Below are positions 3,546-20,339 of a stretch of DNA of 64,000 bases, in pieces. Both the position numbers and the translations under genes were made by a program. Positions within the stretch are counted from its first letter, which is position 1; each line of letters begins with the position of its first letter. Below the pieces are notes generated by a model. That model searched no databases, was not told the DNA's origin, and saw nothing but the letters and a program-made list of their open reading frames with translations. The stretch is from Beijerinckiaceae bacterium (lineage in GTDB: Bacteria > Pseudomonadota > Alphaproteobacteria > Rhizobiales > Beijerinckiaceae): assembly GCA_030684835.1 (NCBI GenBank), contig JAUXWZ010000067.1:1-64000 (forward strand). Reading direction: 5' to 3'.

Positions 3546-3593
3546 TGGTACCACCTCCCGGGCTCGAACCGGGGACCCCCAGATCCACAATCT
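3546..3593. repeat. attL: displaced 3' half of tRNA-His (48-bp direct repeat)
   Basis: Identical over 48 bp to 20407..20454. It covers the CCA end, acceptor 3' strand, T-arm, variable loop and anticodon-stem 3' side, up to the anticodon loop. It diverges on both sides and cannot fold into a complete tRNA, so it is the remnant left when the element inserted. Confidence 0.92.
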
Positions 3594-3726
3594 TGTCGGG
3601 CCAAAAATCAAAGCCTAACAGACCCGAACAATTTTCCGGGCTGTTTCAGCTGAGAAATCAATTGGATAACGCAACTGATCTGCCCTGTTACGCGCAAAGC
3701 CTAACTTTCCAAAACACCCCTGCCAT

Positions 3727-3743
3727 GTTACCGGTCCGTTACC
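3727..3743. repeat. Candidate integrase arm-type sites, left end
   Basis: Two GTTACC repeats 11 bp apart (TGTTACCGGTCCGTTACC), just inside the left end and upstream of the integrase. A near copy lies just inside the right end at 20340..20357. Mirrored placement at both ends is what integrase arm sites look like. This is inference only. Confidence 0.4.
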
Positions 3744-3782
3744 CCAAACGGACCACAAGATTTTTCAAGCGAGTCGGGGAGA

Positions 3783-5003
3783 ATGCCGAAACTCACTGCG
3801 GCGATGGTCGAGAAGTTGACGCCGGATCTCGCAAAACGTCGGGAGGTCCCGGACAGCATTCTGCCGGGTCTCTACCTCCAGATCCAGCCGACCGGCGCAA
3901 AGAGCTGGGCGGTCCGCTACCGCCATCGAGGCCGGACCCGGAAGCTTACGCTGGGCACGGTGGCAGTGCTGCCCCTCGCCCTAGCCCGGGAGCGCGGCAG
4001 GGAAGCGCTACAGGCGGTCGCTGCAGGCCTCGACCCGGCGACGGAGAAGCGGCACGCACGAACCAGCGAAGCGGACCTGGTGAGGTCGATCGTGGCGGAG
4101 TTTCTCGATCGCCATGTCAGATCCAACAACAAACCCCGGACGGCGGAAGAGGTCGAGCGCACCTTCAGGCTGCATGTGGTTCCGGCATGGGGCGACCTGC
4201 CCTTGAAGGAAATCACACGCCGGGACGTCATTGCGTTGCTCGACGCGATCGTCGACGGCGGCAAGCCGATCGCTGCCAACAGAGCTTTCGCCGCGGTTCG
4301 CAAGCTTTTCAATTGGAGCATCGAACGCGGAATTGTGGACACATCGCCATGCGATCGAGTGCGGGCGCCATCGGCGGAGGTCAGCCGCGAGCGCGTGTTG
4401 TCGGACGACGAGGTCGTGCTGTTCTGGAAGGCTGCGGAGACCGTGGGCTGGCCCTTTGGCGCCATGGCGCAGCTGTTGCTGCTGACTGGGCAGCGGCGCG
4501 ACGAGGTGGCGGGCATGAGGCGCACGGAGATCGTCGGGGACCTTTGGCAGATCCCGGGCGCCCGCACGAAGAATGGTATGGCGACAGAGGTTCCATTAAG
4601 TCCGGCCGCCAGAGACATCATCGCGGCGGCGCCTCGCATCGCCGCGTCCGATCTCGTTTTCTCAACGAACGGGCAGACGCCATTTTCCGGCTTCGCCAAG
4701 GGCAAAATTCGAATCGACGTCGCTATGCTCGCAGTGGCGCGAGAGCGAGCGCTGGCGGCCGGCTCAAACGATCTGGACGCCATTGCCCTCACGCCGTGGC
4801 GTCTGCACGATCTCCGACGCACGCTCGCCAGCGGCATGGCGCGCCTCGGCGAGCCGGTGCACGTGATCGAGGCGGTGCTCAACCATCGGGGTGGCGCGAT
4901 CAGCGGCGTGGCGGCGGTCTACAACAGGCACAGGTATCTCGAGGAGAAGCGGGCCGCGCTGGAGCGGTGGGCTCAGCATATTGCGAGGCTGATGCAATCA
5001 TGA
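3783..5003 (+). CDS. int: Tyrosine site-specific integrase (P4-type, DUF4102 arm-binding domain)
   Basis: 406-residue phage integrase that catalyses recombination between the element and the tRNA-His 3' end. The N-terminal arm-binding domain (LTPDLAKRREVPDSILPGLYLQI, then GRTRKLTLGTVAVLPLALAR) spans about residues 5-90. A SAM-like core-binding domain follows, then the catalytic domain. Catalytic residues visible are Arg in TGQRRDEVAGMR near 237, His-x-x-Arg in HDLRRTLASGM, His in VLNHRGG, and the nucleophilic Tyr in AVYNRHRYLEEKRAAL. The length is normal for P4-type integrases. The gene sits about 190 bp from attL and its stop overlaps the next start (ATGA). The enzyme looks intact. Confidence 0.95.
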   Translation: MPKLTAAMVEKLTPDLAKRREVPDSILPGLYLQIQPTGAKSWAVRYRHRGRTRKLTLGTVAVLPLALARERGREALQAVAAGLDPATEKRHARTSEADLVRSIVAEFLDRHVRSNNKPRTAEEVERTFRLHVVPAWGDLPLKEITRRDVIALLDAIVDGGKPIAANRAFAAVRKLFNWSIERGIVDTSPCDRVRAPSAEVSRERVLSDDEVVLFWKAAETVGWPFGAMAQLLLLTGQRRDEVAGMRRTEIVGDLWQIPGARTKNGMATEVPLSPAARDIIAAAPRIAASDLVFSTNGQTPFSGFAKGKIRIDVAMLAVARERALAAGSNDLDAIALTPWRLHDLRRTLASGMARLGEPVHVIEAVLNHRGGAISGVAAVYNRHRYLEEKRAALERWAQHIARLMQS

Positions 5004-5815
5004 AATTAAGCGCAGCCGTTCAGGAGCTGATGATCCTCACCGATCTTTCCGAAGCCGCCGCGCAGAGCGAGCTCTTAAGATTTCTGCGCGAAATAGGCTG
5101 CGACACTTGGGCAACGCGCGTGCACCGCCGAGACGCTTTCGGGGAACGCGATGGACCCCTCAGCATCACGGACAACGAGGTCCTCAGCAAAGACGACTGG
5201 CGGCTCATCAAGGCGAACTGGACGGCCAGCGTTCTTTACCGCGACGAGACTGTCCCTGCGGGAGAAACGCCCTGGTGCGGCACCATAGTAAAAGCCGAAG
5301 GCGTGCAAATTGATCGCACAGACTTCGGGAAACTAGCGGAATTACTTCAATTACAAGTAAAGCTGTTTTCCTTTAAAGAACGGATGCGGCAACGCCAACC
5401 TGCTGCACAGACGCGCAATCGAGGGGGCGTCAAGGCGCGCATAAATTGGCCCGGCGCTGGGGGATACGTCGCCGGCTATTTGCAAGCGAATATGAGAAAG
5501 CCTTCTACCAAAGACCTCGCCTCTTGGTTCGCACAGAGAACCGACGGCTGCGGAGACGTGAAAGCAATCAGGAAGTTCCTCACGGCCGCCGACAACCATC
5601 AGACCAAGACTTCTGACGGTCGCATGCTGACGATTGATTGGGCGCGGCTCGCCATCCCCGTAAGTCAATTCATAAATAAAAATGATCCCTCGTCTGAAGC
5701 GCTGACGGATTTCCTGAGCAAACGCATTCAGGCTGATGATTCGGATGTCGCCCGGTTCGTGCAAGAGGCGCTTAAAAAGACCCCGCCGACGAGCAAACGG
5801 GTAAAACCTCCGTAA
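5000..5815 (+). CDS. Hypothetical protein, translationally coupled to the integrase
   Basis: 271 residues starting at an ATG that overlaps the integrase stop (ATGA). The track shows it only as the tail of an 849-residue frame that begins far upstream in a non-coding frame. I recognise no domain. It is mostly hydrophilic and predicted soluble. The N-terminus (ELMILTDLSEAAAQSELLRFL) looks helical, and the C-terminus is basic and proline-rich. Coupling to the integrase suggests a role in integration, excision or element maintenance, but that is inference. It ends with a 166-bp gap before the AlpA gene. Confidence 0.7.
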   Translation: MKLSAAVQELMILTDLSEAAAQSELLRFLREIGCDTWATRVHRRDAFGERDGPLSITDNEVLSKDDWRLIKANWTASVLYRDETVPAGETPWCGTIVKAEGVQIDRTDFGKLAELLQLQVKLFSFKERMRQRQPAAQTRNRGGVKARINWPGAGGYVAGYLQANMRKPSTKDLASWFAQRTDGCGDVKAIRKFLTAADNHQTKTSDGRMLTIDWARLAIPVSQFINKNDPSSEALTDFLSKRIQADDSDVARFVQEALKKTPPTSKRVKPP

Positions 5816-5841
5816 CCGCGAAACGCTAGTCCCATCAAATG

Positions 5842-5918
5842 GTTAGGCGTAATTCCGGGTATAACCTAACGGGAGGTTCTACCCCCCAGTTTTACCCCTT
5901 CTACCCGTTTCAACGGGT
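5842..5918 (+). promoter_or_regulatory. Inverted repeats upstream of the alpA-like gene
   Basis: The 166-bp gap before the AlpA gene holds GTTAGG...CCTAAC (arms 17 bases apart) and a tight hairpin ACCCGT-TTCA-ACGGGT at 5903..5918. Either could be an operator or attenuator of the rightward operon. No convincing -35/-10 pair could be assigned. Confidence 0.35.
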
Positions 5919-5981
5919 CCGAACGCTGGCACTCCTATGCCCGTGAACGATGAAACTTGTTCAAACAGAAAGGCTCTCAAG

Positions 5982-6224
5982 ATGAGCGAAACATTAATCA
6001 CCCCAAAGAGGCTGCGCGAAAAGCTCGGTGGGGTCAGCGACATGACCATCTGGCGGCACTCGAACAAGCCCGACTCAGACTTCCCGCTCGCCGTCCTGAT
6101 CAACGGCAGGAAGTTTTATCGCGAGGCCGAAATCGATGAATGGATCGCATCCCGGCCGCGCAAGCAGCCTGGCGCCGCTGGCCCGCGGCCCGGTTCGTCA
6201 GTGGAAAACGGAAGGGCTGCTTGA
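5982..6224 (+). CDS. AlpA/excisionase-type helix-turn-helix regulator
   Basis: 80-residue DNA-binding protein of the AlpA/MerR-like excisionase group: MSETLITPKRLREKLGGVSDMTIWRHSN is the helix-turn-helix and wing start, followed by FPLAVLINGRKFYREAEIDEWIASR. P4-like elements and phage satellites use AlpA to switch on the integrase or the early operon. I prefer this ATG to the track start at 5937 because homologous proteins start just before the ITPKxL motif. The stop overlaps the next ATG (TGATG). The basic tail after residue 65 is unlike the core. Confidence 0.8.
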   Translation: MSETLITPKRLREKLGGVSDMTIWRHSNKPDSDFPLAVLINGRKFYREAEIDEWIASRPRKQPGAAGPRPGSSVENGRAA

Positions 6225-6451
6225 TGATCTGGAAACGCACGAGCGCCCGCTCAGCAGCCCCGCCCGGCTTGAACGAAAAAGCCGTCCCCGCGCCAACGGG
6301 GAACGGCTCATTTCAGAGCAGATCACCCATCATGAATAACACAACTCACCATCGCCCTGCAATCGCGATTGAACGCAACGGCTTCGTGCTGGCGATCTGC
6401 GACAACGCCGCCCATGCGCGCGCTATCCTGAGGGAGACACGCACATGGTGA
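6224..6451 (+). CDS. Small hypothetical protein
   Basis: 75 residues in the track's 6140..6451 frame, here started at the ATG that overlaps the AlpA stop. An internal ATG at 6332 (MNNTTHHRPAIAIERNGF) gives a 39-residue alternative. No family is recognised. The C-terminal half (AIERNGFVLAICDNAAHARAILRE) looks like a small mixed alpha/beta fold, and the N-terminal half is low-complexity and basic. It overlaps the next gene by 7 bases and belongs to the rightward early operon. Confidence 0.45.
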   Translation: MIWKRTSARSAAPPGLNEKAVPAPTGNGSFQSRSPIMNNTTHHRPAIAIERNGFVLAICDNAAHARAILRETRTW

Positions 6452-7140
6452 CGATCCCAATCCACACGGCTGCGATCGGGCTGAAAAACGTCCGCTTTTT
6501 TGCCGCGCCGCTCGCTGGCCCGCATATGCCGTGGGTTTCGTTCGACGACCTCCTGCACGCTGCTTCGCTTGATCGCAAACGCAGGCGGTTCTTCCTTACC
6601 GCCTTCCACGAGGGGCTCGGGGATCACCGCAAGGTGCGAACGATCGATGGCCCGACGACGAGCGTGTCGCACCCGGCCGCACAGGCATTCTTCGAGGCCT
6701 TGCGCGACCTGGGGTTGCTGCCCATCGGGCTCGACGACGCCTATACGCACGGCGCCGCTGACGCGATGAAGATCCTCACACGCGACATGAGTGACGACGC
6801 GGCGCATGACCTTCATGTGCGCCGCGTTCCGCAATTCGCAGGGCATGCCGCCTCTGAAGACGGGAGGCGCGAAATGAGTATCGATTATCAAGCGATGGTT
6901 GATCGTCGCCTCTCCCATCTGGAACAACTCGGAGTCCAGTTCTTCCTTCTTTGGTCTCCGACGAGGGGCCTGCACTGGGGCTTCGAATGGACGACCGGCA
7001 GGCTGCACTCACGTGAAATTCGACGGATCATCAACGCCGTTCGTTATGAGGCGACCGACGAGTTTCGCGAGTGTTTCGGTCGGGAAGTGATCCGAAGGGC
7101 GATAGCTTGCGGCGAAGTGCCGATTGAGGTGCGCGCATGA
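6445..7140 (+). CDS. Hypothetical protein of the early operon
   Basis: 231 residues with no recognised domain and predicted soluble. Residues 1-95 (up to PIGLDDAYTHGAADAMKIL) and the C-terminal part (SIDYQAMVDRRLSHLEQLGVQFFLLW, then EIRRIINAVRYEATDEFRE) look like two separate small folds. An internal ATG at 6874 (MSIDYQAM) follows a purine-rich stretch, so a second, shorter product is possible. It overlaps the following gene by four bases (ATGA), so it is translated as part of the AlpA-to-replication operon. Function unknown. Confidence 0.65.
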   Translation: MVTIPIHTAAIGLKNVRFFAAPLAGPHMPWVSFDDLLHAASLDRKRRRFFLTAFHEGLGDHRKVRTIDGPTTSVSHPAAQAFFEALRDLGLLPIGLDDAYTHGAADAMKILTRDMSDDAAHDLHVRRVPQFAGHAASEDGRREMSIDYQAMVDRRLSHLEQLGVQFFLLWSPTRGLHWGFEWTTGRLHSREIRRIINAVRYEATDEFRECFGREVIRRAIACGEVPIEVRA

Positions 7141-7349
7141 CCGCCCCCTCCGAGACCCACATCTATGCGGGCCGCGTGCCTATCGGCATGATCAAGCCCG
7201 TCCGCGACGGCTTCGAGGCGTTCGTCATCGGGCCCCATGACGAGCTGATCTATCTGGCGAAAGCTCGCGATCGTCGTGAAGCCGCCGACCTCGTGTACGA
7301 GCACACGGCGCGCCTCCGGCGCTCACAGATCGAACGGGGGGCCGCATGA
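7137..7349 (+). CDS. Small hypothetical protein of the early operon
   Basis: 70 residues with ATGA overlaps to both neighbours, which is strong evidence that it is translated. It is mixed hydrophilic, with GFEAFVIGPHDELIYLAKARDRREAADLVYEHTARLRR. The short strand-then-helix pattern looks like a single compact domain. No family is recognised. It directly precedes the replication gene. Confidence 0.65.
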   Translation: MTAPSETHIYAGRVPIGMIKPVRDGFEAFVIGPHDELIYLAKARDRREAADLVYEHTARLRRSQIERGAA

Positions 7350-8251
7350 CGGCGCCGATGAAAGATCGCGCCAAAGGCGACGACTTCAATAGGAGAAAGC
7401 TCGAATGGCTTAGCCAGGTCCTGCGCGACCATTCCTTGCCGCGAATTGCCTTACACGTGGCGGTCGCGCTCGGCGATTACTTTAATCGCGGGAACATGGA
7501 GGCATGGCCCAGCCAATCGAAGCTCGCGACAGACTGCGGCCTGAGCCGCAATGGTGTCCGGAAGGGCATCAAAGCGCTGGAGGCGGGAGACCATCTTGCC
7601 GTTGTGCCGGGTCAGGGTCTCGGAAATTCCAGCCGTTACAAGTGGAACCTAAAGGGCCACGGCGGGTGCCCTTTCAACGCCGAGAAAGGGCCACAACCGT
7701 TGCCCTTTTCGGAAACTAAAAGGGCCACAGCGGTGAACGAAAAGGGCCACAGCGGTGTGCATGAAAGGGCCACAGCGGTGGCCACTAACCTTATGAATGA
7801 ACCTATTGAGGAACCTGTTGAATATATATCTCTCAAAGACGACGATCTCTTCGGCGAAAAAAAACACCAAGAAGCGCTGACCAAGTCACCGCCTCGGAAG
7901 TCTAAGCCGGACGCACCGGACGGCTTTGAGGAATTTTACGCCGCATATCCGAGAAGGGTTGAGCCGGATGATGCTCGAACTGCTTACGATCGTGTGATCC
8001 GCAAGGGCAAGGCGACGGCCGAGGAATTGCTCGCCGGAGCTATCCGCTACGCCAGCGAACGCGATGGGCAGGAACGGAAGTTCACGAAACACCCCGCAAC
8101 CTGGTTGAACAAGGGTTGCTGGGCCGACGAGCCCGCGCCGGCTGCGGCGCCCTACTCCAACGGCTTACGCCACGAACCCGCCATGTCGACGACTGAGCGG
8201 CTGCTGCGCCGTGTCCATGAGCGCCAGCACGCGCAACAGGAGGATTTATGA
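7346..8251 (+). CDS. Replication initiator-like protein with winged helix (lambda O-like layout)
   Basis: 301 residues. Residues 10-95 form a helix-turn-helix/winged-helix domain of the HTH_36 type (EAWPSQSKLATDCGLSRNGVRKGIKALE). Residues about 100-170 are a low-complexity linker whose DNA carries five iterons. Residues about 185-265 form a C-terminal domain common in phage replication proteins (FEEFYAAYPRR, KFTKHPATWLNKGCWADE). An N-terminal DNA-binding domain, iterons in the linker and a C-terminal helicase-loading part match lambda O and related phage initiators. The protein probably binds these iterons and opens the adjacent AT-rich tract. Its stop overlaps the next start. The family call is moderate; the layout is seen directly. 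Confidence 0.75.
   Translation: MTAPMKDRAKGDDFNRRKLEWLSQVLRDHSLPRIALHVAVALGDYFNRGNMEAWPSQSKLATDCGLSRNGVRKGIKALEAGDHLAVVPGQGLGNSSRYKWNLKGHGGCPFNAEKGPQPLPFSETKRATAVNEKGHSGVHERATAVATNLMNEPIEEPVEYISLKDDDLFGEKKHQEALTKSPPRKSKPDAPDGFEEFYAAYPRRVEPDDARTAYDRVIRKGKATAEELLAGAIRYASERDGQERKFTKHPATWLNKGCWADEPAPAAAPYSNGLRHEPAMSTTERLLRRVHERQHAQQEDL
7651..7780 (+). repeat. Five iterons inside the replication gene (candidate replication origin)
   Basis: Copies of AAAGGGCCACAGCGGTG start at 7651, 7685, 7719, 7741 and 7764. The last three are exact and the first two are variants (AAAGGGCCACGGCGGGTG, AAAGGGCCACAACCGTTG). Each of the first two is followed by an inverted GCCCTTT, giving AAAGGGC-10-GCCCTTT palindromes. 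Spacings are 34, 34, 22 and 23 bp. An AT-rich stretch follows at about 7796..7870 (with GAATATATATC), as expected for an unwinding element. Confidence 0.8.
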
Positions 8252-8997
8252 TGAATGCTCAATCAAAGCCGCTGACGCCTATCTCCCGCGCCGCACCGTC
8301 ACCCGCAAAAGCCGCACCGCCTACGATCGATAACGCAGCAATCATTCGACAAGCAGCCCAACCGCTGCGCGACGTTCGATTTACAGAACAGGCGTACGCG
8401 GCTGTGGCTCTCAAGACCGCCATGTTCGAGCAGCAACACGCCGACCGCGCATGCCGCAAATTGGTTCCTGGCATGGGGCGGGTTATCACGACGACCGCAC
8501 TGAATCTGGTGGAAACAGAATTCCGCGAGGTGCTGAACCGCCTCCCTGCGCTCCCCGATCTCGCCTCGGCCGAGAGACGAATAAACGCAGCGCTACAGGA
8601 ACCAGCCACAGAGGCGCATTTCGCCTTGTGCGCGGGGATCATGAGCGACGTGTTCCCAGGCAAATCGGGCGAAGGGGCCGCCGTCTACGCGGATCTGATG
8701 GCCTGCGTATTTGAGTTTCTGCCCGAAACTGACGACGGCACGAAGGTGCGGGAAATGCCATTTTGTGCAGTCGCGGCCGCGTTGCTCGACCTGTGCACAA
8801 CAAAGACTTTCCGTCCGACTATTGCGGAGGTCATCGAAAAGGCGCGGTCTCAACGCGATCGACTGCTTCGCGCGCAGAGGTGTATCGTGATAGTGCGCAA
8901 CGCGATCAACTTCACGACGGAATGGCTCGGGTCGATCGAGGAAAAGCGCGCACAGGCCGTTGACGTGCTCGACTCCGACCGCGAAGCGCGGGCATGA
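8248..8997 (+). CDS. Hypothetical protein after the initiator, possibly a helicase loader
   Basis: 249 residues starting inside the stop of the replication gene (ATGATGA). The first 35 residues are proline/alanine-rich. The rest is helical, with FALCAGIMSDVFPGKSGEGAA near 130 and a C-terminal FRPTIAEVIEKARSQRDRLLRA. The position after an O-like initiator and the (F/R)xPTxxEvxE motif with its trailing basic helix recall phage P-type helicase loaders. Sequence similarity is too weak for a firm call. No Walker A is visible, so it is not a DnaC-type ATPase. Confidence 0.6.
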   Translation: MMNAQSKPLTPISRAAPSPAKAAPPTIDNAAIIRQAAQPLRDVRFTEQAYAAVALKTAMFEQQHADRACRKLVPGMGRVITTTALNLVETEFREVLNRLPALPDLASAERRINAALQEPATEAHFALCAGIMSDVFPGKSGEGAAVYADLMACVFEFLPETDDGTKVREMPFCAVAAALLDLCTTKTFRPTIAEVIEKARSQRDRLLRAQRCIVIVRNAINFTTEWLGSIEEKRAQAVDVLDSDREARA

Positions 8998-9350
8998 CGA
9001 AGGACGATGAAGAAAAGGCGCGCCGGCACTGGCGTTGGCCTGTTTCGCGCATTGCGCTGGCTGCGCAACTCCATGGCGCCGGCTGGACGTTCGATGAAAT
9101 CGCGCGCCATCCGAACGTCGCCTCGACGGGATACAGCGTGCGACGCGCCCTCAAGCGCGCGGGTGTGGAGATTGACGACGGGCGTCGCGGGCGCACCATC
9201 CGCGTGATGATCCGTCATCCCGATCTTCCAGCTCTCGATGCGGCGGCGCAGACGCGGCGGATCGATCTGCCAGAGCTAATAGAAAGGTTGGTGCGGCTGC
9301 TCGCAGAAGAGCCCGCGCTGATCAGCAACGTATTCGACGACGGGAGGTGA
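8994..9350 (+). CDS. Small helix-turn-helix-like hypothetical protein
   Basis: 118 residues with ATGA overlap to the preceding gene. The first half (ALAAQLHGAGWTFDEIARHPNVASTGYSVRRALKRAGV) has the spacing of a helix-turn-helix like those of resolvase C-terminal or GcrA-like domains. The C-terminal half (LPELIERLVRLLAEEPALI) is helical. It could be a late-gene regulator or a DNA-binding accessory of replication. Neither can be shown. Confidence 0.6.
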   Translation: MTKDDEEKARRHWRWPVSRIALAAQLHGAGWTFDEIARHPNVASTGYSVRRALKRAGVEIDDGRRGRTIRVMIRHPDLPALDAAAQTRRIDLPELIERLVRLLAEEPALISNVFDDGR

Positions 9351-9352
9351 GC

Positions 9353-9658
9353 ATGACGCCCTCACGCCGCGCTCATTTGGAGTCGATGTGGTGCGTAGCG
9401 CTCGCCTATTTGGAATCCCTCAACCACATGCTTGAGACAGAGACGGCCACGATCGGATATGCAGACGCCGCAAAGATGGCCGAATGCACTAAAGACGCAA
9501 TGCGCCAGCGCGCTGTCCGTGGAACCGTGCCGAAGGTGCCGGGCCAGCCGCGAATCCAGCGCGAACTATTTGAGGCCGAACTGCGAAAGCAAGCGATCGC
9601 GCAGGCCATGATCGAAGCCGTGCAGGATTGGCCGGACGCGCCTTGTGTCACAGATTAA
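9353..9658 (+). CDS. Small hypothetical protein with AlpA/Cox-like helix-turn-helix
   Basis: 101 residues. The start is taken at the ATG 4 bases after GGGAGGTG; the track's GTG at 9347 lies inside that ribosome binding site. The middle (GYADAAKMAECTKDAMRQRAVRGTVPKVPGQPRI) looks like an excisionase or terminase-small-type helix-turn-helix with its wing. The N-terminal helix may be for dimerisation. Function unknown. A 76-bp gap follows and ends the tightly overlapping early gene string. Confidence 0.55.
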   Translation: MTPSRRAHLESMWCVALAYLESLNHMLETETATIGYADAAKMAECTKDAMRQRAVRGTVPKVPGQPRIQRELFEAELRKQAIAQAMIEAVQDWPDAPCVTD

Positions 9659-9737
9659 TTCGATCTTGTCACACCTTCGCGCGTGCGTCCGTTGCGCGCC
9701 TGCGGCAGAATTGCTTCAGTGATTTGGAGCGATCGTG

Positions 9738-9947
9738 ATGAGCGTCGACAATCAGTTTGAACAAACTATTCGCGCCGAAGAGCGCATGCGAATTCGCAAG
9801 ATCATAGCGAGCGCGAGCGCGCACCTCGTGCCTCTGGAAGCGATGACGCTGGCCCTTCGGACGAACCTGCGTGCTGACCAAGCCGAGAAGATCCTCGCGC
9901 AAACTGCAAAAGCCGTCTCAACAATCATCAGAGGGCCGCGCCTGTGA
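9738..9947 (+). CDS. Small hypothetical protein resembling the tail of phage head proteases
   Basis: 69 residues. The track starts one codon earlier. The segment AEERMRIRKIIASASAHLVPLEAMTLALRTNLRADQAEKIL reminds me of the C-terminal tail found in many S49/ClpP-type prohead proteases of alphaproteobacterial prophages, here as a free-standing protein. No protease domain is present in the element. The resemblance is from memory and untested. Its stop overlaps the next GTG start (GTGA). Confidence 0.45.
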   Translation: MSVDNQFEQTIRAEERMRIRKIIASASAHLVPLEAMTLALRTNLRADQAEKILAQTAKAVSTIIRGPRL

Positions 9948-10918
9948 AAAAGCTTCTCGACATGATCCGCGGCGACAGAAACACCAGCAATACAAGCCAC
10001 GAATTGCGCCAGGCGATCGATGTGGCTGAACAGAACGTGACCAGGGCCGAAGGCCTGCTCACGCAGGCGCGCGAGTCCTACGAGTCCTCGCTGCTCGACC
10101 CTGACGAAAAGGCGAGCATCGCCGCGCACCGGACACTCAGCGATATGCAGGTGCGCCTCGACCGCGCGCGCATCCTGGCTGAGAAGCTCAGAGCCGAACT
10201 GGCAGAGGTGGAAGCCGAAGAGGCCGAGGCCGAGCGCCAAACGCAATTCGAGGCGGCCACGAAACTCGCAAATGACGCCAAGGCGGCACTCCTGAAATAT
10301 CCCGCAGCCGCACACGCCGTTGCTGCAATCATTTTCAAGAAAGTTAGGGCCGACGTCGCCATTGCCGCAGCAAACAAAAACCCTCCGAAGGGCGCCGAGC
10401 TTATCGCCTATCCCGAGCACGAACTTCGCGGACTTCCGGCTGACCATCGCGTGATCGTCGACGAGCGCATTGAGGACGCAGGCTGGTGGTTTGCCGACGG
10501 ACGCGGGCGCGTCGAAGAGTCCCTGATCAAAGAAATTGAACACCACAACGGCAAGAGCTTCGTTAACATCAAAATGCGGGGCTACGAGGCTAAACGCGTC
10601 GCGGTCGAACGCCGGAAGCGGCTGGTCACGACGTTTCTGCCGCGCCGGGACGGCTATCATCCCGAAGGACTCTCGATGGCGGTGCGGCTGCCCGGCTTGA
10701 AGCCCGGCGAAGCCCCCATCTGGAACGGCTGGGGCGACTTCACACCGGAAACCGAAGACGATCCGAGGTTCTTGGAATTCGTTGAATCCGTTGAGGCGAG
10801 TTGGCGCGAGAAGCCGTCAGACCCGCGCGGCCCTCGCGGCGAAGAGCGCGAAGTTTCCTGGCTGAGTGAAGATGAAGCGGCCGACAGGGAGGCGCTCGCC
10901 CACACGCTAAACCTCTAA
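9944..10918 (+). CDS. Coiled-coil hypothetical protein
   Basis: 324 residues starting at a GTG that overlaps the previous stop. Residues about 20-115 form a long Glu/Ala/Arg-rich coiled coil (ARILAEKLRAELAEVEAEEAEAE). The C-terminal half (GAELIAYPEHELRGLPADHRVIVDERIEDAGWW onwards) is a globular region without a recognised fold. The last 40 residues are acidic and charged. A coiled coil upstream of tail genes could be a scaffold or structural accessory, but nothing in the sequence fixes that. Confidence 0.6.
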   Translation: MKKLLDMIRGDRNTSNTSHELRQAIDVAEQNVTRAEGLLTQARESYESSLLDPDEKASIAAHRTLSDMQVRLDRARILAEKLRAELAEVEAEEAEAERQTQFEAATKLANDAKAALLKYPAAAHAVAAIIFKKVRADVAIAAANKNPPKGAELIAYPEHELRGLPADHRVIVDERIEDAGWWFADGRGRVEESLIKEIEHHNGKSFVNIKMRGYEAKRVAVERRKRLVTTFLPRRDGYHPEGLSMAVRLPGLKPGEAPIWNGWGDFTPETEDDPRFLEFVESVEASWREKPSDPRGPRGEEREVSWLSEDEAADREALAHTLNL

Positions 10919-10960
10919 TCGCCCGGGTGCCTCGCCGGCCTTCGCTGAGGCAAGGTCTTG

Positions 10961-11038
10961 AACGTGAGGCGGCTCACTGGTGAGCGGCGCCGCCTCGCGA
11001 GGCGGCCGGGAGGAAGCCCAGCGCTGCCTCCCGGCCGC
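10961..11038 (+). promoter_or_regulatory. Strongly folded intergenic region before the tail genes
   Basis: The 157-bp gap between the coiled-coil gene and the tail genes contains GTGAG...CTCAC repeats, an 18-bp perfect palindrome (GCCGCCTCGCGAGGCGGC, 10989..11006) and an overlapping 12-bp stem-loop (11002..11013 with 11027..11038, loop 13). The stems share bases and are mutually exclusive, as in attenuators. No U-tract follows, so a simple terminator is unlikely. Confidence 0.55.
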
Positions 11039-11075
11039 AAGCCCAGGCGCAAATTAATGGACGCAGGATGAACCG

Positions 11076-11324
11076 ATGATCCAACTGCGCACGCCCGTCA
11101 CGTTCGCAAACCAGGTCTACACGACCTTTCCCGTGCAGCCGCCGTGCGAGGAAGCGCTGCGCCGCTTCACGGCGATCACGCGGGCGGGAGGCGGAATAGA
11201 AACAGCATGGATCGCGTTTGCGGCCGCACAGGCGGGATGGCCAACAGAGGCCGTCCGCAAGATCAGATCATCCGACTTTGCACAGATCGTCAAAGCTTAT
11301 CGAGAGAACAACCATGAACGATGA
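11076..11324 (+). CDS. Small tail-module protein, possibly a tail tube/chaperone accessory
   Basis: 82 residues just before the tail assembly chaperone, whose start it overlaps by 11 bases. The pattern MIQLRTPVTFANQVYTTFPVQPPCEEALRRF begins like proteins of the Phage_TAC group (a strand followed by a helix). The overlap with the next gene argues for coupling. No firm family assignment can be made. Confidence 0.55.
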   Translation: MIQLRTPVTFANQVYTTFPVQPPCEEALRRFTAITRAGGGIETAWIAFAAAQAGWPTEAVRKIRSSDFAQIVKAYRENNHER

Positions 11325-11637
11325 AGCACACTCCGAAAGCACGCCAACGCCCGCCCCTCGTTTTGTCGACACAGGCAAGGCCCGCACCAAGACGGTGATG
11401 CTTGAATGGCCTGTCGAATTCGACGGCAAGGTGTGGTCGGAAATCACCATTCGCAGGCTCACCGCCGCAGAGGTTGACATGTTCGTCGAGGATGCACGCG
11501 AGGCCGGCGCAAAGGCGCGACTGCCGATGTTCGATGCGCCCTTCGATGTGCTGGACGCGCTCGACAGTGACGACGCTGAAAATCTCAACCGCGAGGCCGA
11601 GCCTTTTTTGCCCTTGGCGTTCCGGGCGCGCGAATAG
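11314..11637 (+). CDS. Phage tail assembly chaperone (P2 gpE / Mu gp41-like)
   Basis: 107 residues from the ATG at 11314; the track's longer start at 11218 overlaps the upstream gene in a frame without homology. The core VMLEWPVEFDGKVWSEITIRRLTAAEVDMF is the typical TAC_7-type beginning (strand, DGkv, IxxR). These chaperones bind the tape measure protein during tail assembly in Myo- and Siphovirus-type phages. A slippery heptamer TTTTTTG near the 3' end, in the correct frame, allows a -1 frameshift into a downstream extension, just before the tape measure gene. This is the standard organisation. Confidence 0.8.
   Translation: MNDEAHSESTPTPAPRFVDTGKARTKTVMLEWPVEFDGKVWSEITIRRLTAAEVDMFVEDAREAGAKARLPMFDAPFDVLDALDSDDAENLNREAEPFLPLAFRARE
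11604..11610 (+). promoter_or_regulatory. Programmed -1 ribosomal frameshift site TTTTTTG
   Basis: The heptamer T-TTT-TTG is in the correct register relative to the chaperone frame (CCT TTT TTG). After slipping one base back, the frame reads TTT TTT GCC and stays open to the stop at 11769..11771. The same slippery sequence is used in the phage P2 gene E. An inverted repeat GCGCTC...GAGCGC lies 27 bases downstream. Confidence 0.75.
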
Positions 11638-11771
11638 CGCTCGCAGATCCCCGGAGCGCAATCGCCATGACAGCCTCTACCCTGTCGACACCGATCCCCT
11701 TCTTCCTCGCGCAGGATTGGCGTGAGTTCGCGTCGTGGCATTCCCGAGCCCTTGATCTTCGGAGGTTCTGA
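11610..11771 (+). CDS. Frameshift extension of the tail assembly chaperone (E' part)
   Basis: Codons read after the -1 slip at 11604..11610, ending at a TGA that overlaps the ATG of the tape measure gene. The fused product would have about 152 residues. The frame also contains an ATG at 11667 that would give a free 34-residue peptide (MTASTLSTPIPFF...). The end FLAQDWREFASWHSRALDLRRF fits the small GpE'-type extensions, which carry a conserved tryptophan helix. It has no obvious ribosome binding site of its own, supporting translation through frameshifting. Confidence 0.65.
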   Translation, partial: ALGVPGARIALADPRSAIAMTASTLSTPIPFFLAQDWREFASWHSRALDLRRF

Positions 11772-14065
11772 TGGCCGGAAATAACGTGGTCGCCAATCTG
11801 GTTCTGCGGCTTGTGGATCAAGTCAGCGACCCGGCGAAAGGCGTTGCCGGTTCTCTCAAGAACCTCGGCAACGTCGCCGGGAAGCAGAGCCTTCAAAATC
11901 GCCGCGCGAACCTGCTTTCGCCGGAGGGCGGCGCTCTGGCCATCGCGCGCATGAAGGCGCTCGATAAGGAGACGGCGAGATTCGGCAAGCGATACGAAAT
12001 CGCCGCGGCGAAAAACGGGAAGTCGTGGTCGACAAATCTCGCCGCCACAAGCGCCATGATCGCGGCGCAAGGCAAGGCGCTGGATTCAGCGGGTCGCAAG
12101 GCTGCGACGACGGCAACGCATTTTCGAGCGACGTCCGCCGCCGCGCACGGCGCCATGTATACGTTGTCGAAAGTGCAGCGCGCTCCGCTTTCGACGGTTT
12201 CTTTGGGGCCGGTGACGCCGAGCGAAACATCGCGCCGCGCGGCCGAACAGGGCAAGCAGCGGGCCTCCACATGGGTCGCAGCTCAAGGCGCTGCGGCGGG
12301 CGCTGCTGCTGCTGCGTCTCGGGGCGGCGGCGGAGGCGGAGGCGACGATGAGGACGGCAAAAGACGCGGGCGCAGGGTAGGCGGCGTCGCCGGCGGCGTC
12401 GGCGCGGGCGGAACGGCTGCTGCAGTCTGGACGCTAGCTAAGAAGCGTGCCGAGGCGGAACGGCGCATGACCCGCGCAGCTATCAGCGCAGGCCTTGAGC
12501 ATGGGCGCGTGCCGGGCGAAGTCTCAAAGACTTATGCCGAGTTTCGCCAACAAGCGACCGACATGGGCGTCGAGGTCGGATTCATCCAGGACGGATTCGA
12601 GGCGCTAATTACGCTGGGCCGGTCCTGGGAGGAGGCTCGACGCGAGGCTCGGACTGTTGCGCAAGCAGCGCACACCTACGACACGTCCGCCGAAGACATG
12701 GCCCGTACGCTCGATACGGTGGCCGAAAATCTGGACATGAAGAGCGGTTCGGATCGCGAGGCCGGGCTGAAATCGATCGTCGGCGGCGGCCGCAGCGGCA
12801 CGTTCGAAATCAAGGACGTTGCGAAGAACTTTCCCGAATTGGCGCCAAAAGCGAAAGCCGCAGGCTACAAGGGTAACGAGCACCTACAGCAATTCCTCGC
12901 CAAACTACAGCTAATCAACGAGCGAACGAACAACGCCTCGACCACGACGACACAGATGTCGCGTCTGCTCGACGAATTGAACTCGCCGCAGGCGCAGAAG
13001 CGATTTCAGAAGGCGGGCGTTAATCTGACGGAAGGGATCGAGCGCGGCGTCAAGGAAGGCAAGACGAGGCTCGACGCCTATCTTGACGTGCTGCGCAAGG
13101 CCACGGGCGGCGACGAGAACAATCTGAATAAGTACATCGTCAACACGCAGGCGCGCGATGGCGCGCGGGCTTTGCTCAACCTGCAGTCGTATCTTGAGAA
13201 GATCAAGGAGGTGGCGGAGCGTTCCCAGACCGGGCTCGAACAGGACGCGAAGCTGCTCGACGATCACAAGAAAAACATGGAATCGTTCGGCCGCGCGCTT
13301 GGCGATCTGGGTGACGAAATCGGCAAGGTGGCGGTGAAAGCGACGCCCTTTGTCCAGCGGCTCACGGACAGCTTCCGGCTTCTGTCCGGCAATATGTCCA
13401 ACGAAGAGCGCGAGAAGGTTCTGAAGAATCGCACCAAAAGCAGTGATCCTGTTACGCGTTTCTGGGCCAGCCGCTCCCTGACTGAACTCGAGAAGCGCAT
13501 GGGGCGCGGCCGCGACTTCACATTGGGCCAACCGGGCCACCGGCTTTCGCCCACCGGCATCCCCGTCGAGAACGGCGGCTTTTTCCAGCCGTCAGACTCG
13601 ATGAATCGTCTAGCCACCAAATCCATTGAAGAAGGGATGAAGCGCAGCCCTTTGCCATCGGTGCGTTCCGGCCGCGTCACTGGCCAGGCTGGACTCTATC
13701 CAGGCGCATTGTCGCCGGGCAGCATATCCGCGGCTCCCTTTCTGGCACCAACATCAACGATGCCGGGCGTGCCGCCGTTGCCACCCATGCGGCCGAAGGT
13801 CGACAAGAGCGAACTCGACTCCGCGAGCAATGTCTTCGATCACATCAACACCATGCTTGACGAGGTGAACGGCAAGACGACGACGCCGCACATCAACGCG
13901 GAGTCAATCAAGCGGGCGCACGACCTCCTGCGCGAGTTCCTGAACGATCTCAATCGCGCCGATCAGGGAATGAAGAGCCTAGGAAGCGGGGCGCAGAAAA
14001 CGCTCCAGCCCGGCGGCCGGGTCCGCGAAGCCTTCCGCGCTGGCAACTTCGACCAAGGCAGCTGA
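11771..14065 (+). CDS. Phage tail tape measure protein
   Basis: 764 residues. The N-terminus (MAGNNVVANLVLRLVDQVSDPAKG) is typical of tape measure proteins. A helical region follows, then a poly-glycine hinge near residue 185 (RGGGGGGGDDEDG) and a hydrophobic Gly/Ala stretch near 203-223. The TP901-type core begins near 240 (MGVEVGFIQDGFEALITLGRSWEEA). The C-terminal 200 residues are proline-rich and then helical. It sets tail length and plugs the tail tube. By the usual rule of thumb (about 1.5 angstrom per residue) it would span roughly 115 nm at most. It begins inside the stop of the chaperone extension. It is the largest gene of the element and intact. Confidence 0.88.
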   Translation: MAGNNVVANLVLRLVDQVSDPAKGVAGSLKNLGNVAGKQSLQNRRANLLSPEGGALAIARMKALDKETARFGKRYEIAAAKNGKSWSTNLAATSAMIAAQGKALDSAGRKAATTATHFRATSAAAHGAMYTLSKVQRAPLSTVSLGPVTPSETSRRAAEQGKQRASTWVAAQGAAAGAAAAASRGGGGGGGDDEDGKRRGRRVGGVAGGVGAGGTAAAVWTLAKKRAEAERRMTRAAISAGLEHGRVPGEVSKTYAEFRQQATDMGVEVGFIQDGFEALITLGRSWEEARREARTVAQAAHTYDTSAEDMARTLDTVAENLDMKSGSDREAGLKSIVGGGRSGTFEIKDVAKNFPELAPKAKAAGYKGNEHLQQFLAKLQLINERTNNASTTTTQMSRLLDELNSPQAQKRFQKAGVNLTEGIERGVKEGKTRLDAYLDVLRKATGGDENNLNKYIVNTQARDGARALLNLQSYLEKIKEVAERSQTGLEQDAKLLDDHKKNMESFGRALGDLGDEIGKVAVKATPFVQRLTDSFRLLSGNMSNEEREKVLKNRTKSSDPVTRFWASRSLTELEKRMGRGRDFTLGQPGHRLSPTGIPVENGGFFQPSDSMNRLATKSIEEGMKRSPLPSVRSGRVTGQAGLYPGALSPGSISAAPFLAPTSTMPGVPPLPPMRPKVDKSELDSASNVFDHINTMLDEVNGKTTTPHINAESIKRAHDLLREFLNDLNRADQGMKSLGSGAQKTLQPGGRVREAFRAGNFDQGS

Positions 14066-14075
14066 GGGGGATTGA

Positions 14076-14879
14076 ATGGCTCGACGCTCCCTCACCCTGC
14101 GCGCGACGGCAATTCACGAAAGCGGCCATGTTTCGTGCGCGTGGCACTATGGCATCCCGATCGCGCATGCATCGATCGTCCCAGAAGATTCGGCCCTCGG
14201 GCATGTGCAGATCGCGCCGGGCCGTGAGAAGGGCCCGCCGTCGGGCCGCACGTTCTTCGAACATATGGCGGTGATCTATTTCGCCGGCGGAGCGGCGCAG
14301 CGCATCTACAACCCACGATCGGGCCTCAAGCAGGCCTGCCGCAAGGATCACGAGGAAGCCGCCCGCCTCGCTGGGGTGTTGTGCCTGTCGCCCGACACTG
14401 AGCGCGCCTGGCTGCGTTGTGGGGCGCTGATGGCCCGCGACATCGTGCAGGCCAGATGGTCAGTGGTGGAGGCCCTTGCCAGCGCCCTGGAGGCCCTACG
14501 CGTGATCCCCGGGGACGAAGCCTTCCGCATCTGCGACGAGGCTGCTGCGCGCAATGACGCGGCCCATACAACGTCGCCGCCCGAGCGCATTCCCTCCGAC
14601 CTTGAGTTAGAGGCGTACGTCGCAGCGCGACGTGCACGCCGCGCCCAACGCCGGGACGTCGATGCGGCGATCTCCCGTGCGTGGATCGATCGCGCCGCAA
14701 CCGGGGAAGGTTCGCCCGGTGAAGTCAAGTCTATCCTCATCGCCGCCGCAGAGAGCATGACGGGCGCGTTCAAGCATGAAGACTTCGCCGCGCGCCTCGA
14801 AGCCATGATCGCCGAACGTCAACAGCTCGCCTGTCGCGGCTGGCGCCCTGTCGTCGACACAATGAAGGAGACCACATGA
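14076..14879 (+). CDS. Orphan M41-type (FtsH-like) zinc peptidase domain protein
   Basis: 267 residues. The N-terminus TAIHESGHVSCAWHYGIPIAHASIVP matches the zinc-binding HExxH region of FtsH proteases (AxHExGHAxxA...V.IxP), and ALGHVQI follows as in FtsH (ALGxTx). A later AGGAAQRIYN...CRKDHEEAARLAG aligns with the FtsH segment that supplies the third zinc ligand, here Asp in KDHEEA. No AAA ATPase domain or membrane helix is present. The gene lies between the tape measure and the minor-tail-Z-like gene, so it may process a virion protein or a host factor. Its stop overlaps the next start (ATGA). Confidence 0.7.
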   Translation: MARRSLTLRATAIHESGHVSCAWHYGIPIAHASIVPEDSALGHVQIAPGREKGPPSGRTFFEHMAVIYFAGGAAQRIYNPRSGLKQACRKDHEEAARLAGVLCLSPDTERAWLRCGALMARDIVQARWSVVEALASALEALRVIPGDEAFRICDEAAARNDAAHTTSPPERIPSDLELEAYVAARRARRAQRRDVDAAISRAWIDRAATGEGSPGEVKSILIAAAESMTGAFKHEDFAARLEAMIAERQQLACRGWRPVVDTMKETT

Positions 14880-15493
14880 AGATCGAGATCACCATCGACG
14901 CCGGGCTGAAGCAGTTCATCGGCAACGTCGAGAACCTCTCCGCCAAGGCCCGTGAGGAAATGGAGCGCGGCCTCATGAGGGGCGGCGAGCGTCTACGCAC
15001 GCCTGTCCGCCGCGCCCTGCAGAAGCAAACCTCGGCCAAGAAATACGGGACCATCGTCCAGCACACCCGCTCATGGCTCTCCGGCCCGCTCGAATACTCC
15101 ATTGCCGGGCGCGCCAAGGGCCTGCCCATAGAGGAATTCCCGCACAAGGTCTCGCGATCCAAGAAGCTCGCCATGCGATGGAGCCGCACAGATCACTGGC
15201 GCCTGCAGAAGCGAAACGCCAAAGGCCAATTCGGCACCCTCCCCGAGATGAATGAGCGCGGCGTCTCGGCAACCATGTGGACGAAGAACCGCGCCTTCGC
15301 CCGTTCCTTCGGCCATCCCTCCAAAGGCCCCGTCATGCAGCGCATCCCCAAGAAGCCGGGCATGCGCAAACTCTTCGGCCCCTCACTCGCCAAGGAGATC
15401 GTCAAGGACATGTCGCTCGCCGCGTTCATCGAGAACGCCGAGCAGCTCGTCCTGCCCGAAATCCAGAAGCGCCTCGTCGGCCTCCTGCGATGA
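14876..15493 (+). CDS. Minor tail protein Z-like / tail completion protein
   Basis: 205 residues, basic. The N-terminus (EITIDAGLKQFIGNVENLSAKAREEMERGL...RTPVRRALQKQT) and the C-terminal block (KLFGPSLAKEIVKDMSLAAFIENAEQLVLPEIQKRL) match the layout of lambda gpZ-type proteins, which act at tail completion or the head-tail joint. It follows the peptidase with a 4-base overlap. It is placed after the tape measure, unlike in lambda where Z precedes the tail tube gene. The call rests on pattern, not alignment. Confidence 0.6.
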   Translation: MKIEITIDAGLKQFIGNVENLSAKAREEMERGLMRGGERLRTPVRRALQKQTSAKKYGTIVQHTRSWLSGPLEYSIAGRAKGLPIEEFPHKVSRSKKLAMRWSRTDHWRLQKRNAKGQFGTLPEMNERGVSATMWTKNRAFARSFGHPSKGPVMQRIPKKPGMRKLFGPSLAKEIVKDMSLAAFIENAEQLVLPEIQKRLVGLLR

Positions 15494-15515
15494 GCCGGGC
15501 GTGTTGCGCTGCACA

Positions 15516-15548
15516 TACCGCAGCGCACACGGGCTACCGCAGCGCACA
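15516..15548 (+). repeat. Direct repeats upstream of terS (candidate packaging site)
   Basis: Two exact copies of TACCGCAGCGCACA (15516..15529 and 15535..15548) with a 19-bp period. They are preceded by an inverted partial copy (TGTTGCGCTGCAC at about 15502). Small terminase subunits often bind repeats next to their own gene, as in lambda cosB upstream of Nu1. This is inference from position. Confidence 0.4.
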
Positions 15549-15656
15549 AGGCGCGGGTCCTTCCGGCCAAGGTAGCCCCGCCGGCCCTAGGCAGCCCTTA
15601 AAATGAGCATTTTTCGACCGGTGAAATTCGCAGTTTGGTTTGGTCAGGAGAGCGAT

Positions 15657-16142
15657 ATGAACGTGAGTGAAGCAAAGCAGGCGCGGGTCTCGGTGGCTCA
15701 GTTGGCGACCTTGACCGGCGTAACCGAGACGTGGATTCGGCGGCTAATCAAGGAGGGCTGGATCCCTGCCCCGGAAGACCACCTGGTGCCGGTCGTCGCC
15801 GGCGTGCAGGGCTACCTCCGCTACCTTAAGGACCCGTCCCGCCGCGCGCAGGGGTCAGCCGAGGAAAACCGTTTACTCAACGCGAAGGCGGAACTCCTGG
15901 AGAGCCGGAATAGGGATCGGGAGGACCGGCTGATCGACATCGAGGAGCATCGCGAGTGCGGGGAGTTCGTGCTCACCGCACTCGACGAGGCCTTCAAGGG
16001 CGTTCCGGATCGCTTCACCGCCGACCCCGTTGTGCGGGAGCGCATCAGGATGGAGATCGCCGCGGTGCTGGCCAGGTCCCGGGCCCGTTTCGAGCGGCTC
16101 ACGGCGGAGCTGATGGCGCGCGGCAAGGCGCGGCGGCACTGA
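15657..16142 (+). CDS. terS: Terminase small subunit (Nu1-like DNA packaging protein)
   Basis: 161 residues from the ATG after AGGAG; the track start at 15603 lacks a ribosome binding site. The N-terminal winged helix (VSVAQLATLTGVTETWIRRLIKEGWIP) and the wing with V.GYLRYL are typical of Nu1. A helical segment (EENRLLNAKAELLESRNRDRE) and a C-terminal part with EHRECGEFVLTALDEAF follow. In phages the small subunit selects the DNA to package and hands it to the large subunit. No large subunit exists in this element, as in SaPI-type satellites that use the helper's motor. It is the last gene of the rightward virion-related block. Confidence 0.85.
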   Translation: MNVSEAKQARVSVAQLATLTGVTETWIRRLIKEGWIPAPEDHLVPVVAGVQGYLRYLKDPSRRAQGSAEENRLLNAKAELLESRNRDREDRLIDIEEHRECGEFVLTALDEAFKGVPDRFTADPVVRERIRMEIAAVLARSRARFERLTAELMARGKARRH

Positions 16143-16262
16143 GGGACGGTCCTAACGCGTAGGCCACGTCCGAACCGCGAACCGCGAACCGCGTTAATCT
16201 AACGCCGGGAAGCCGTTGCCCCGGCTGGCCCGTATCGGATCGGGCGTTTCTGGGACGGCTAA

Positions 16263-16290
16263 GGCGGAGAGGGTCCAATTCCCTCCCGCC
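16263..16290. other. Stem-loop after terS
   Basis: GGCGG-A-GAGGG pairs with CCCTC-CCGCC around a 7-base loop, with one bulged A. It lies 120 bp past terS in a 190-bp gap that otherwise holds only a 7-bp triple repeat (GAACCGC). No T-run follows. It may end the late transcript. Confidence 0.4.
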
Positions 16291-16332
16291 GGGACGGGGC
16301 GCGGAAGGCGAATGAGGGGGAGCGAACTGCTG

Positions 16333-16620
16333 TCAGGAGAGGCCTTCATCCTTCGTTTCGGCAAGGCGCTTTAGCAAACGCTGCACCTGCACTGTCTGCC
16401 ATGTAGTGCGCCCCCGGGATGTCCGCACGTTGCCAGAGGTCAGCGCTGCAGCGATACGGCTTGGAGTTGTAGCGCCTTGAGCAGCTAAGTCGGCGATTAC
16501 CTGGCGCATGGACGTGGCCCACGCAAGCGAGCGAGCGCGTACGGTGGCATGCGTGCGCGCGAGGCTCTCCGGTGTCGAGCCGCGACGGCGTGAAGGATAT
16601 TCGTTGGGGGTCCCATGCAT
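16333..16620 (-). CDS. C-terminal-type fragment of a serine recombinase
   Basis: 95 residues, leftward against the rest of the element. The segment RQVIADLAAQGATTPSRIAAALTSGNVRTSRGRTTWQTVQVQRLLKRL has the pattern of the small DNA-binding end of serine resolvases (A...IAxxLN..GixTxxGxxWxxxqVxrvL). No catalytic N-terminal domain is present, and an in-frame stop lies just upstream of the ATG. It is either a remnant or a small stand-alone DNA-binding protein. It marks the start of the mosaic right end. Confidence 0.45.
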   Translation of the reverse strand: MHGTPNEYPSRRRGSTPESLARTHATVRARSLAWATSMRQVIADLAAQGATTPSRIAAALTSGNVRTSRGRTTWQTVQVQRLLKRLAETKDEGLS

Positions 16621-16756
16621 GGTGGCTTTCTATGCCGTTGAAGCCTGGACGTGCAACCTCGCGCCGCGCTCGACTGTCGCCACGCGTGACGCGCTCGGGC
16701 ACCATGAGAGATAAAGCCAGCTTCGCGGCCACCATAGCCCGCTACTTTTCGTTCAA

Positions 16757-16980
16757 GTGGCAACGCCGCCGACGCCGCTATCCGCCGACGCCGCAAGGAG
16801 TCCGAGGCGGGCCATTCGCATCCGGGACCGCGCTATCCGGCGCATGGGCGAAGTGCTGAAACAGTTCGACGCACAGGGACAACGATCCGACAAATTTAAG
16901 GAGGTCGACCGCCCTAAGTTGTCGCAACGAGAAGCAGCCCAAGACGCAGGTATCTCGCCGCACCAGCAAAAGCAGGCGGG
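16757..16980 (+). pseudogene. Fragment of a phage ParB-like/regulatory protein
   Basis: RAIRIRDRAIRRMGEVLKQFDAQGQRSDKF and later KLSQREAAQDAGISPHQQKQA resemble the middle of a widespread phage/plasmid ParB-like protein (RAERRxGELL..., LxdLGIsxxQSSRWQkLA). The N-terminal nuclease-like part is missing, and the sequence turns unrelated after QQKQA. The frame runs on into the next gene as random sequence. I read it as a decayed remnant. Confidence 0.4.
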
Positions 16981-17018
16981 CTTTTTGCCTTTCTGTGCTT
17001 GCGCGCTAGCTTCTGATC

Positions 17019-17237
17019 ATGGGCCGTTACTATTTTCACGTGCGATTAGGGGATCAGGTTTCGCTTGACGATGTCGGGGTTGAGCTTCCCGACGTCAGCA
17101 GCGTCAAAACGTCCATAAGCGACGCCCTGCACGCTAGCGGACTTAACCTGACGCTGGGTTGGGTGTTCGAGGTCGCCGACGAGACCGGGCGCATTGTGCT
17201 CATAGTGCCAATTGCAGACCTTCCAAAGACGCAATAG
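17019..17237 (+). CDS. DUF6894-type small protein
   Basis: 72 residues starting MGRYYFHVRLGDQVSLDDVGVELPD and ending with WVFEVADETGRIVLIVPIADL. This pattern (MxRYxFH...D..G.elpd...W...V.De.G..v..vPF) marks a very common small family of unknown function in Rhizobiales chromosomes, plasmids and islands. It is intact. It may be cargo rather than part of the element's life cycle. Confidence 0.75.
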   Translation: MGRYYFHVRLGDQVSLDDVGVELPDVSSVKTSISDALHASGLNLTLGWVFEVADETGRIVLIVPIADLPKTQ

Positions 17238-17473
17238 GTCGGTCCCTCCTCAAATGATCGAGGCCTTTCGAAGGCTGGGTTCTTCGTTTTGATCGTCAGG
17301 GTTTGATCCAGAGCGGTACCGGGATCCGCGCCGCGAGACCTACGAGGCGCTTGCCGACCGCGCCCTGCGGCTGGCGATGGCGCACCGATTAGCCGAAATT
17401 GAGCTGGATATTGGCAGCGGTCAGCCTAAGGCATTGACCGCGCTGGACATATATAAGTACTTGATTCCCCACA
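17238..17473. other. Intergenic region with a short coding-like remnant
   Basis: Between the DUF6894 gene and the antitoxin gene. A frame from about 17297 reads DPERYRDPRRETYEALADRAL and stays open to a stop near 17494, but it has no start codon early on and no ribosome binding site. It is probably a remnant. The last 60 bases are AT-rich (ACATATATAAG) and probably hold the promoter of the downstream pair. Confidence 0.35.
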
Positions 17474-18332: not shown

Positions 18333-18419
18333 CCCACGCCGCCGCGCCTCCAAGGCACCCCCCTTCGCCAGCATGGTCGATCCTTTGAACCCCCGAATTG
18401 CGGATCGGCCTCGCTTCGA

Positions 18420-18656: not shown

Positions 18657-18671
18657 AATCGCCCCTGCGCC

Positions 18672-19362: not shown

Positions 19363-19450
19363 AATTTATGTGTAACAAAACTTGCGAGCCGGGGCAAGAG
19401 TATCAGTCTCGCCACCGGCCCTAACCACAGCGAACGATAGGAGATTCGCA

Positions 19451-20335: not shown

Positions 20336-20339
20336 GGCT

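Follow-up and report, generated by a model that had tools for sequence, protein, structure and literature searches.

A probable in-gene replication origin in an integrated phage-like element of a Beijerinckiaceae bacterium

Introduction

A predicted replication initiator gene in a Beijerinckiaceae genome carries in its middle five copies of a short DNA repeat, which raises the question whether these copies form the origin at which the encoded protein acts, or serve as regulatory sites, as RNA signals or as code for a repetitive peptide. Origins formed by iterons within a gene are a classic type, and most detailed knowledge of them comes from SPP1 and the relatives of lambda; an earlier note on this DNA had proposed an origin of the lambda type. 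Here the locus is considered within the window, i.e. the whole stretch of 64,000 nucleotides that was analysed, and beside its relatives. The reading we prefer, with a probability of roughly 85%, is that an integrated phage-like element of 16.9 kb has its replication origin inside its own initiator gene, that the repeats belong to this origin, and that it works by the steps proposed below.

The element and its initiator

The element (3546-20457) is integrated at tRNA-His. Its left end, attL (3546-3596), duplicates 51 nt from the 3' portion of the tRNA gene (20407-20483) and is 98% identical to attR (20407-20457), the right end within that gene. It encodes a tyrosine integrase (3783-5003, plus strand; Pfam Arm-DNA-bind_3 and Phage_integrase), an AlpA/excisionase-like protein, the initiator, a tape measure, a neck protein, a small terminase (TerS) and a SocA-like protein. 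Because no capsid, portal or large terminase was recognised among its genes, the element is taken to be a remnant or satellite-like; it may be decaying, with its origin idle. For its 10-kb core, no full relative was found in 149 genomes of the family. A 350-bp segment at ~9006-9355, part of the open reading frame 8994-9350, has an 82% identical copy at G000:C66:71215-71567, probably in another prophage.

The initiator gene (7346-8251, plus strand) encodes 301 amino acids. The phrog_270 replication initiation protein profile matches residues 25-279 (E 4.6e-32) and thereby spans both domains; Pfam reports HTH_36 (E 2.8e-7), a weak GntR match and no lambda O family, while weak local matches exist to the O-like PHROG families 678, 391 and 345. 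Judged by these profiles, the protein is a member of the HTH_36/phrog_270 group of phage replication initiators, with no homology to lambda O by Pfam. It consists of a winged helix (residues ~6-100), a linker (~103-190), a helical C-terminal domain (194-260) and a C-terminal helix; the AlphaFold model reaches a pLDDT of ~95 in the winged helix and falls below 50 in the linker, which is predicted to be disordered and whose coding DNA holds the iterons. No solved structure matched the initiator sequence, and Foldseek gave generic winged-helix proteins with E > 0.01 throughout, some of them labelled no more precisely than 'Structure of initiator' or 'Structure of Rep-DNA complex'.

The next gene (8248-8997, plus strand; 249 aa) matches a single profile, phrog_9804, a family of unknown function. 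Its place is taken in other relatives by DnaC-like helicase loaders or by DnaB, and it aligns at 23-31% identity with the genes following the initiators of L048 (2412-3233), L229 (1180-1842) and L005 (870-1529). The structure model of its product is all-helical and of low confidence, and a structure search with this model gave no informative match. By position and alignment, a role as loader is plausible, possibly in a new helicase-loader family together with the genes of L048, L229 and L005.

Iterons and the adjoining A+T-rich tract

Between 7651 and 7780 the plus strand carries AAAGGGCCAC(N)GCNG five times and, as in lambda-type origins, these multiple iterons fall inside the initiator's own coding sequence. 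Iterons 1 (7651-7674) and 2 (7685-7708) are 24-nt full palindromes, AAAGGGC-N10-GCCCTTT, with perfect 7-bp inverted repeats; the earlier note, too, had described them as palindromes. Iterons 3 (7719-7735), 4 (7741-7757) and 5 (7764-7780) are exact copies of AAAGGGCCACAGCGGTG over 17 nt, from which iterons 1 and 2, ending in GCCCTTT, depart by 3 mismatches over the same length. Iteron 4 follows iteron 3 by 22 bp and iteron 5 follows iteron 4 by 23 bp, the set being completed by two longer gaps of 34 bp; with the inner palindrome GGCCAC-AGCG-GTGGCC of iteron 5, the inverted-repeat form is complete in two of the five copies and partial in one. Chance would supply 0.18 iteron matches in the window, and the word AAAGGGCCACNNCNG occurs five times in the whole 4.9-Mb genome, always at this locus, with 0 control hits. 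When codons were reshuffled synonymously with the protein kept, none of 5000 reshuffles reached the observed repeat statistic of 66 (mean 1.9, maximum 27), so that the repeats claimed for the linker between the winged-helix and C-terminal domains are well established.

The copies fall in all three reading frames (offsets 2, 0, 1, 2 and 1), from which it follows that the repeated unit is DNA and not peptide. The linker peptides KGHGG, KGPQP, KRATAV, KGHSG and ERATAV can be understood as one DNA repeat read in different frames, and the earlier suggestion that the DNA repeat had shaped them is borne out. These observations show that the repeats are under selection at the level of DNA. That they are instead selected as protein, with the DNA repetition a by-product of a repetitive flexible linker, is highly improbable and, in view of the frame usage, refuted: the linker is predicted to be disordered and such linkers tolerate repeats, but the copies encode different peptides in three frames, synonymous shuffles never reproduce the repetition, and the gaps in relatives include 22 and 23 bp.

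Directly 3' of iteron 5 an A+T-rich tract begins after GGCCAC (7781-7840, plus strand), the proposed DNA unwinding element. Its A+T content is 63%, against 39% in the element, which places it in the top 0.4% of the element's 60-mers, and it occupies the place of the ~40-bp A+T-rich region found directly 3' of the iterons in lambda-type origins. The AT-rich stretch noted earlier is therefore real, but its end at 7870 was set somewhat long, as the A+T content drops again past ~7860. Within the tract stand three AACC words, AACCTTATGAATG, AACCTATTGAGG and AACCTGTTGAAT (7787-7823, plus strand; starts at 7787, 7800 and 7812). Given the encoded peptide, this triple alone is not significant (251 of 2000 shuffles, p ~0.13), and for this reason the case for an AACC array rests on the family.

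The locus is thus ordered as DNA-binding domain, iterons, A+T-rich tract on the 3' side, C-terminal domain and finally the gene in loader position, a polarity that speaks for an origin. The proposed lambda-type in-gene origin is well supported as a working analogy, each of its sequence elements being present in order, although by Pfam the protein does not belong to the lambda O family; 'lambda-type' describes a mode of working, not a kinship of proteins.

Relatives: iterons that follow the winged helix

Scans of viral contigs and two genome searches supplied the pool from which we took 95 initiators that have both domains and are non-redundant under a 30% 10-mer filter; the shuffle statistics below ignore the kinship remaining between loci. 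Scans for close relatives gave few loci with the protein of the window and none with those of L009 and L005. The repetition of the linker exceeded all 19 protein-preserving shuffles in 71 of the 95 relatives, and at the sensitivity of this test the other 24 have no significant linker repeats. On the question raised earlier, whether relatives possess the same protein without repeats, most relatives prove to have them, though at this sensitivity not all. The repeat gaps cluster at 21-24 bp (135 gaps) in mixed reading frames, and the inverted-repeat score was higher than in shuffled sequences in 60 of 69 loci of the family. In the relatives, A+T amounts to 60% at 10-50 nt past the iterons, compared with 45% in the helix-turn-helix part, and just 3' of the iterons it exceeds the mean of the respective open reading frame in 91% of 69 loci.

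The earlier note had asked whether the repeats of relatives vary together with the helix-turn-helix, and this is what the relatives show. Iteron similarity tracks winged-helix similarity (Mantel r 0.30, p 0.0005; 0.18 for C-domain similarity), also after C-domain similarity has been removed (partial Mantel 0.29, p 0.0005), the signal coming mainly from pairs of more than 50% identity, below which the iteron words look unrelated. Individual pairs are instructive in this context. L162 and L142 are 84% identical in the winged helix and 18% in the C-domain; they have iterons and AACC array in common and diverge after the array. The pairs L083/L125, L205/L115 and L076/L053, on the other hand, possess similar C-domains and different winged helices, and differ in both iterons and array. 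An exchange of winged helices has been published for Gordonia phage initiators (PMC10684548); pairs such as L162/L142 agree with it and suggest that the exchanged unit includes the origin. From these comparisons, winged helix, iterons and AACC array appear to behave as one DNA cassette, kept together when the C-terminal domain is exchanged.

The same genome holds two more initiators of this class, L009 (G000:C63:112381-112848) and L011 (G000:C189:563-835), with different iteron words, AAAGGTGTCACGGCTGTAACACCTTT in L009 and CCCTCC...GGGAGGG in L011. The whole-linker repeat test is weak for L009 (4, shuffle maximum 5) because its repeat copies are degenerate. L009 and the window agree in the residues of the recognition helix, GVRK, and in a half-site, AAAGG..CACGGC. 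In L048, the iteron spacings equal the unusual 34 bp and 22 bp of the window, with a similar core (AACAGCCGTT vs CACAGCGGTG).

A family-wide AACC array

Directly 3' of the variable iterons the family carries a strand-specific array of approximately AACCRTCA every 10-14 nt, in all frames. It was first spotted by eye, as GAACC-N7-8 repeats after the iterons, and tested afterwards. AACC occurs in 85 of the 95 loci, in all three frames, at 12.9 per kb in the linkers compared with 3.2 per kb in the N part and 3.9 per kb in the C part (GGTT: 2.1 per kb); by position, its density is 26.8 per kb after the iterons, 6.8 per kb before and 7.9 per kb within them. Plain k-mer enrichment over synonymous shuffles lacked the strength to bring out the array, much of which is already fixed by the encoded peptides, and tests of frame and spacing were used for this reason. 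With proteins kept and codons shuffled, 278 AACC words compare with 181 ± 10 expected, 69 spacings of 10-14 nt with 17.5 (maximum 27), and 34 such spacings that are not multiples of three with 8.3 (maximum 17). Fifteen further non-redundant loci, including named phages and several related Arthrobacter-type phages, gave 24 AACC spacings of this kind against 4.6 (null maximum 10). Among named viruses, the initiators of JBD68, EBPR podovirus 2, Arthrobacter phage Kuleana and Caudovirus D_HF5_3 resemble the one described here in having the same two domains, iterons of their own and then the AACC array; their iteron words differ, their annotations go no further than hypothetical or replication initiation protein, and in Lilmac1015 the array is not clear.

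We propose that the array may be the strand captured by the initiator on opening. In the few informative pairs its type follows the winged helix and not the C-domain, a hint that recognition lies with the winged-helix side, or merely a sign that the DNA is inherited as one block. Tentatively, and at slightly under even odds, it could be a class-wide single-strand recognition array (AACCRTCA every 10-14 nt), conserved across phages of Proteobacteria and Actinobacteria beside freely diverging iterons, a phage counterpart of the DnaA-trios or the RK2 13-mers that is written across frames in the initiator gene and travels with the winged helix as a cassette. Repeats in A+T-rich regions are known, and their length, spacing and sequence are described as differing from one replicon to another (PMC10797057); a description of a common AACC word was not found in the literature searched, mostly open-access, where motifs are rarely spelled out in the text.

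Among 63 initiators with the same C-domain and other N-domains, 28 linkers exceed all shuffles. In L001, L006, L052, L089, L091, L101 and L108, which also combine this C-domain with other N-domains, the C-domain is preceded by different arrays, short in period and poor in T (GGAACAG, CAGAGT, CAGAGACAGA, AACCACC).

Other roles for the repeats

Winged-helix initiators often autoregulate, and the repeats might be operators for repressing or pacing the initiator's own expression, with the true origin elsewhere, for instance 3' of the gene as in PICIs. The satellite-like look of the element, with its integrase, AlpA-like protein, initiator and small terminase, lends this some weight, integrase, AlpA-like protein and TerS being PICI-like features. 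In PICIs the origin is found on the 3' side of the replication gene, where two iteron sets flank an A+T region (PMC6092414); the present element has one set, inside the gene, and also a tape measure and a neck protein, and does not conform to a PICI-type satellite. The repeats moreover sit mid-gene rather than at a promoter, no second copy exists in the window or genome, and the A+T tract with its AACC array follows the iterons family-wide. We regard operators in place of an origin as unlikely; autoregulation as such is compatible with origin function.

It is still less likely that the repeats are sites for a different protein, for instance a host factor or a partition protein. Iteron-like arrays do act as partition sites as well, but none of the open reading frames tested gave a parA/parB-like match, and the repeat words differ among the same genome's three initiators (L004, L009 and L011) and follow the winged helix, which a host factor leaves unexplained. 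A role in mRNA, where hairpins might slow translation or bring transcription to an end, is suggested by the perfect 7-bp inverted repeats of iterons 1 and 2 and is marginally weaker again: the three exact copies, iterons 3-5, appear to lack strong hairpins, and their repetition and spacing of 22-23 bp suit a protein on duplex DNA.

Known origins and a proposed mechanism

The in-gene origin preferred here resembles that of lambda gene O, together with P22 gene 18 and the O genes of Stx phages, where iterons lie mid-gene between the DNA-binding and C-terminal domains (PMC5043065, PMC7466680), as inverted repeats ~20 bp apart with an A+T-rich tract directly 3'. It differs in an HTH_36 initiator by Pfam, an unrelated iteron word, five iterons with two 34-bp gaps, and the AACC array, which is absent from lambda, whose tract reads ACAAAAGACACTATTACAAAAGA, partly common to P22. 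Lambda and P22 (L129 ~621-650, L309 ~2926-2960) have unrelated iterons followed by a common ACAAAAGACA-N-TAT(T)ACAAAAGA, a pattern of variable iterons beside a common tract, as in the AACC family. Bacillus phage SPP1, compared by description only, is similar in that oriL lies in gene 38, an origin-binding protein gene with direct repeats and an A+T-rich unwinding element, and its replication proteins include the helicase loader gp39 (PMC6316719); host phylum and sequences are different. Plasmid RK2 oriV, served by the winged-helix TrfA, likewise combines double-stranded iterons with a separate adjoining array of ~13-nt repeats; its unwinding element contains four 13-mers, bound by the initiator as one single strand (PMC4081077). 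Unlike the present locus, RK2 is a plasmid with its origin outside the initiator gene, a monomeric initiator on direct repeats, and DnaA boxes involved.

The following sequence of events can be envisaged. The element would excise, and winged-helix dimers of the initiator would occupy all five iterons, with some two helical turns from one to the next among the last three, and build a wrapped complex. Strain from this complex, supercoiling and transcription of the gene could together melt the A+T-rich tract directly downstream; the initiator would then hold the melted strand that carries, or faces, the regularly spaced AACC words, and its C-terminal domain, with the product of 8248-8997, would recruit the host replicative helicase. 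Binding and dimerisation of the initiator, melting of the tract, capture of a strand and loading of the helicase are our inferences from the anatomy of the locus, which fits the same order of steps as lambda O and the plasmid initiators. Lambda O dimers on inverted-repeat iterons open the adjoining 40-bp A+T region (PMC5043065), whose single-stranded DNA is bound by lambda O as well (PMC7466680). In plasmids, winged-helix initiators bind one strand of the unwinding element's 13-mers, and altered 13-mers abolish replication (PMC4081077).

Significance

The locus and its relatives amount to ~110 natural winged-helix/iteron pairs, a data set for studying initiator specificity and the co-evolution of initiators and origins. 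The part that specialists might not expect is the family-wide AACC array. Should it prove to be the captured strand, phage origins would gain a recognisable unwinding code by which to annotate them from sequence, and short oligonucleotides could be used to test whether winged-helix initiators capture a strand.
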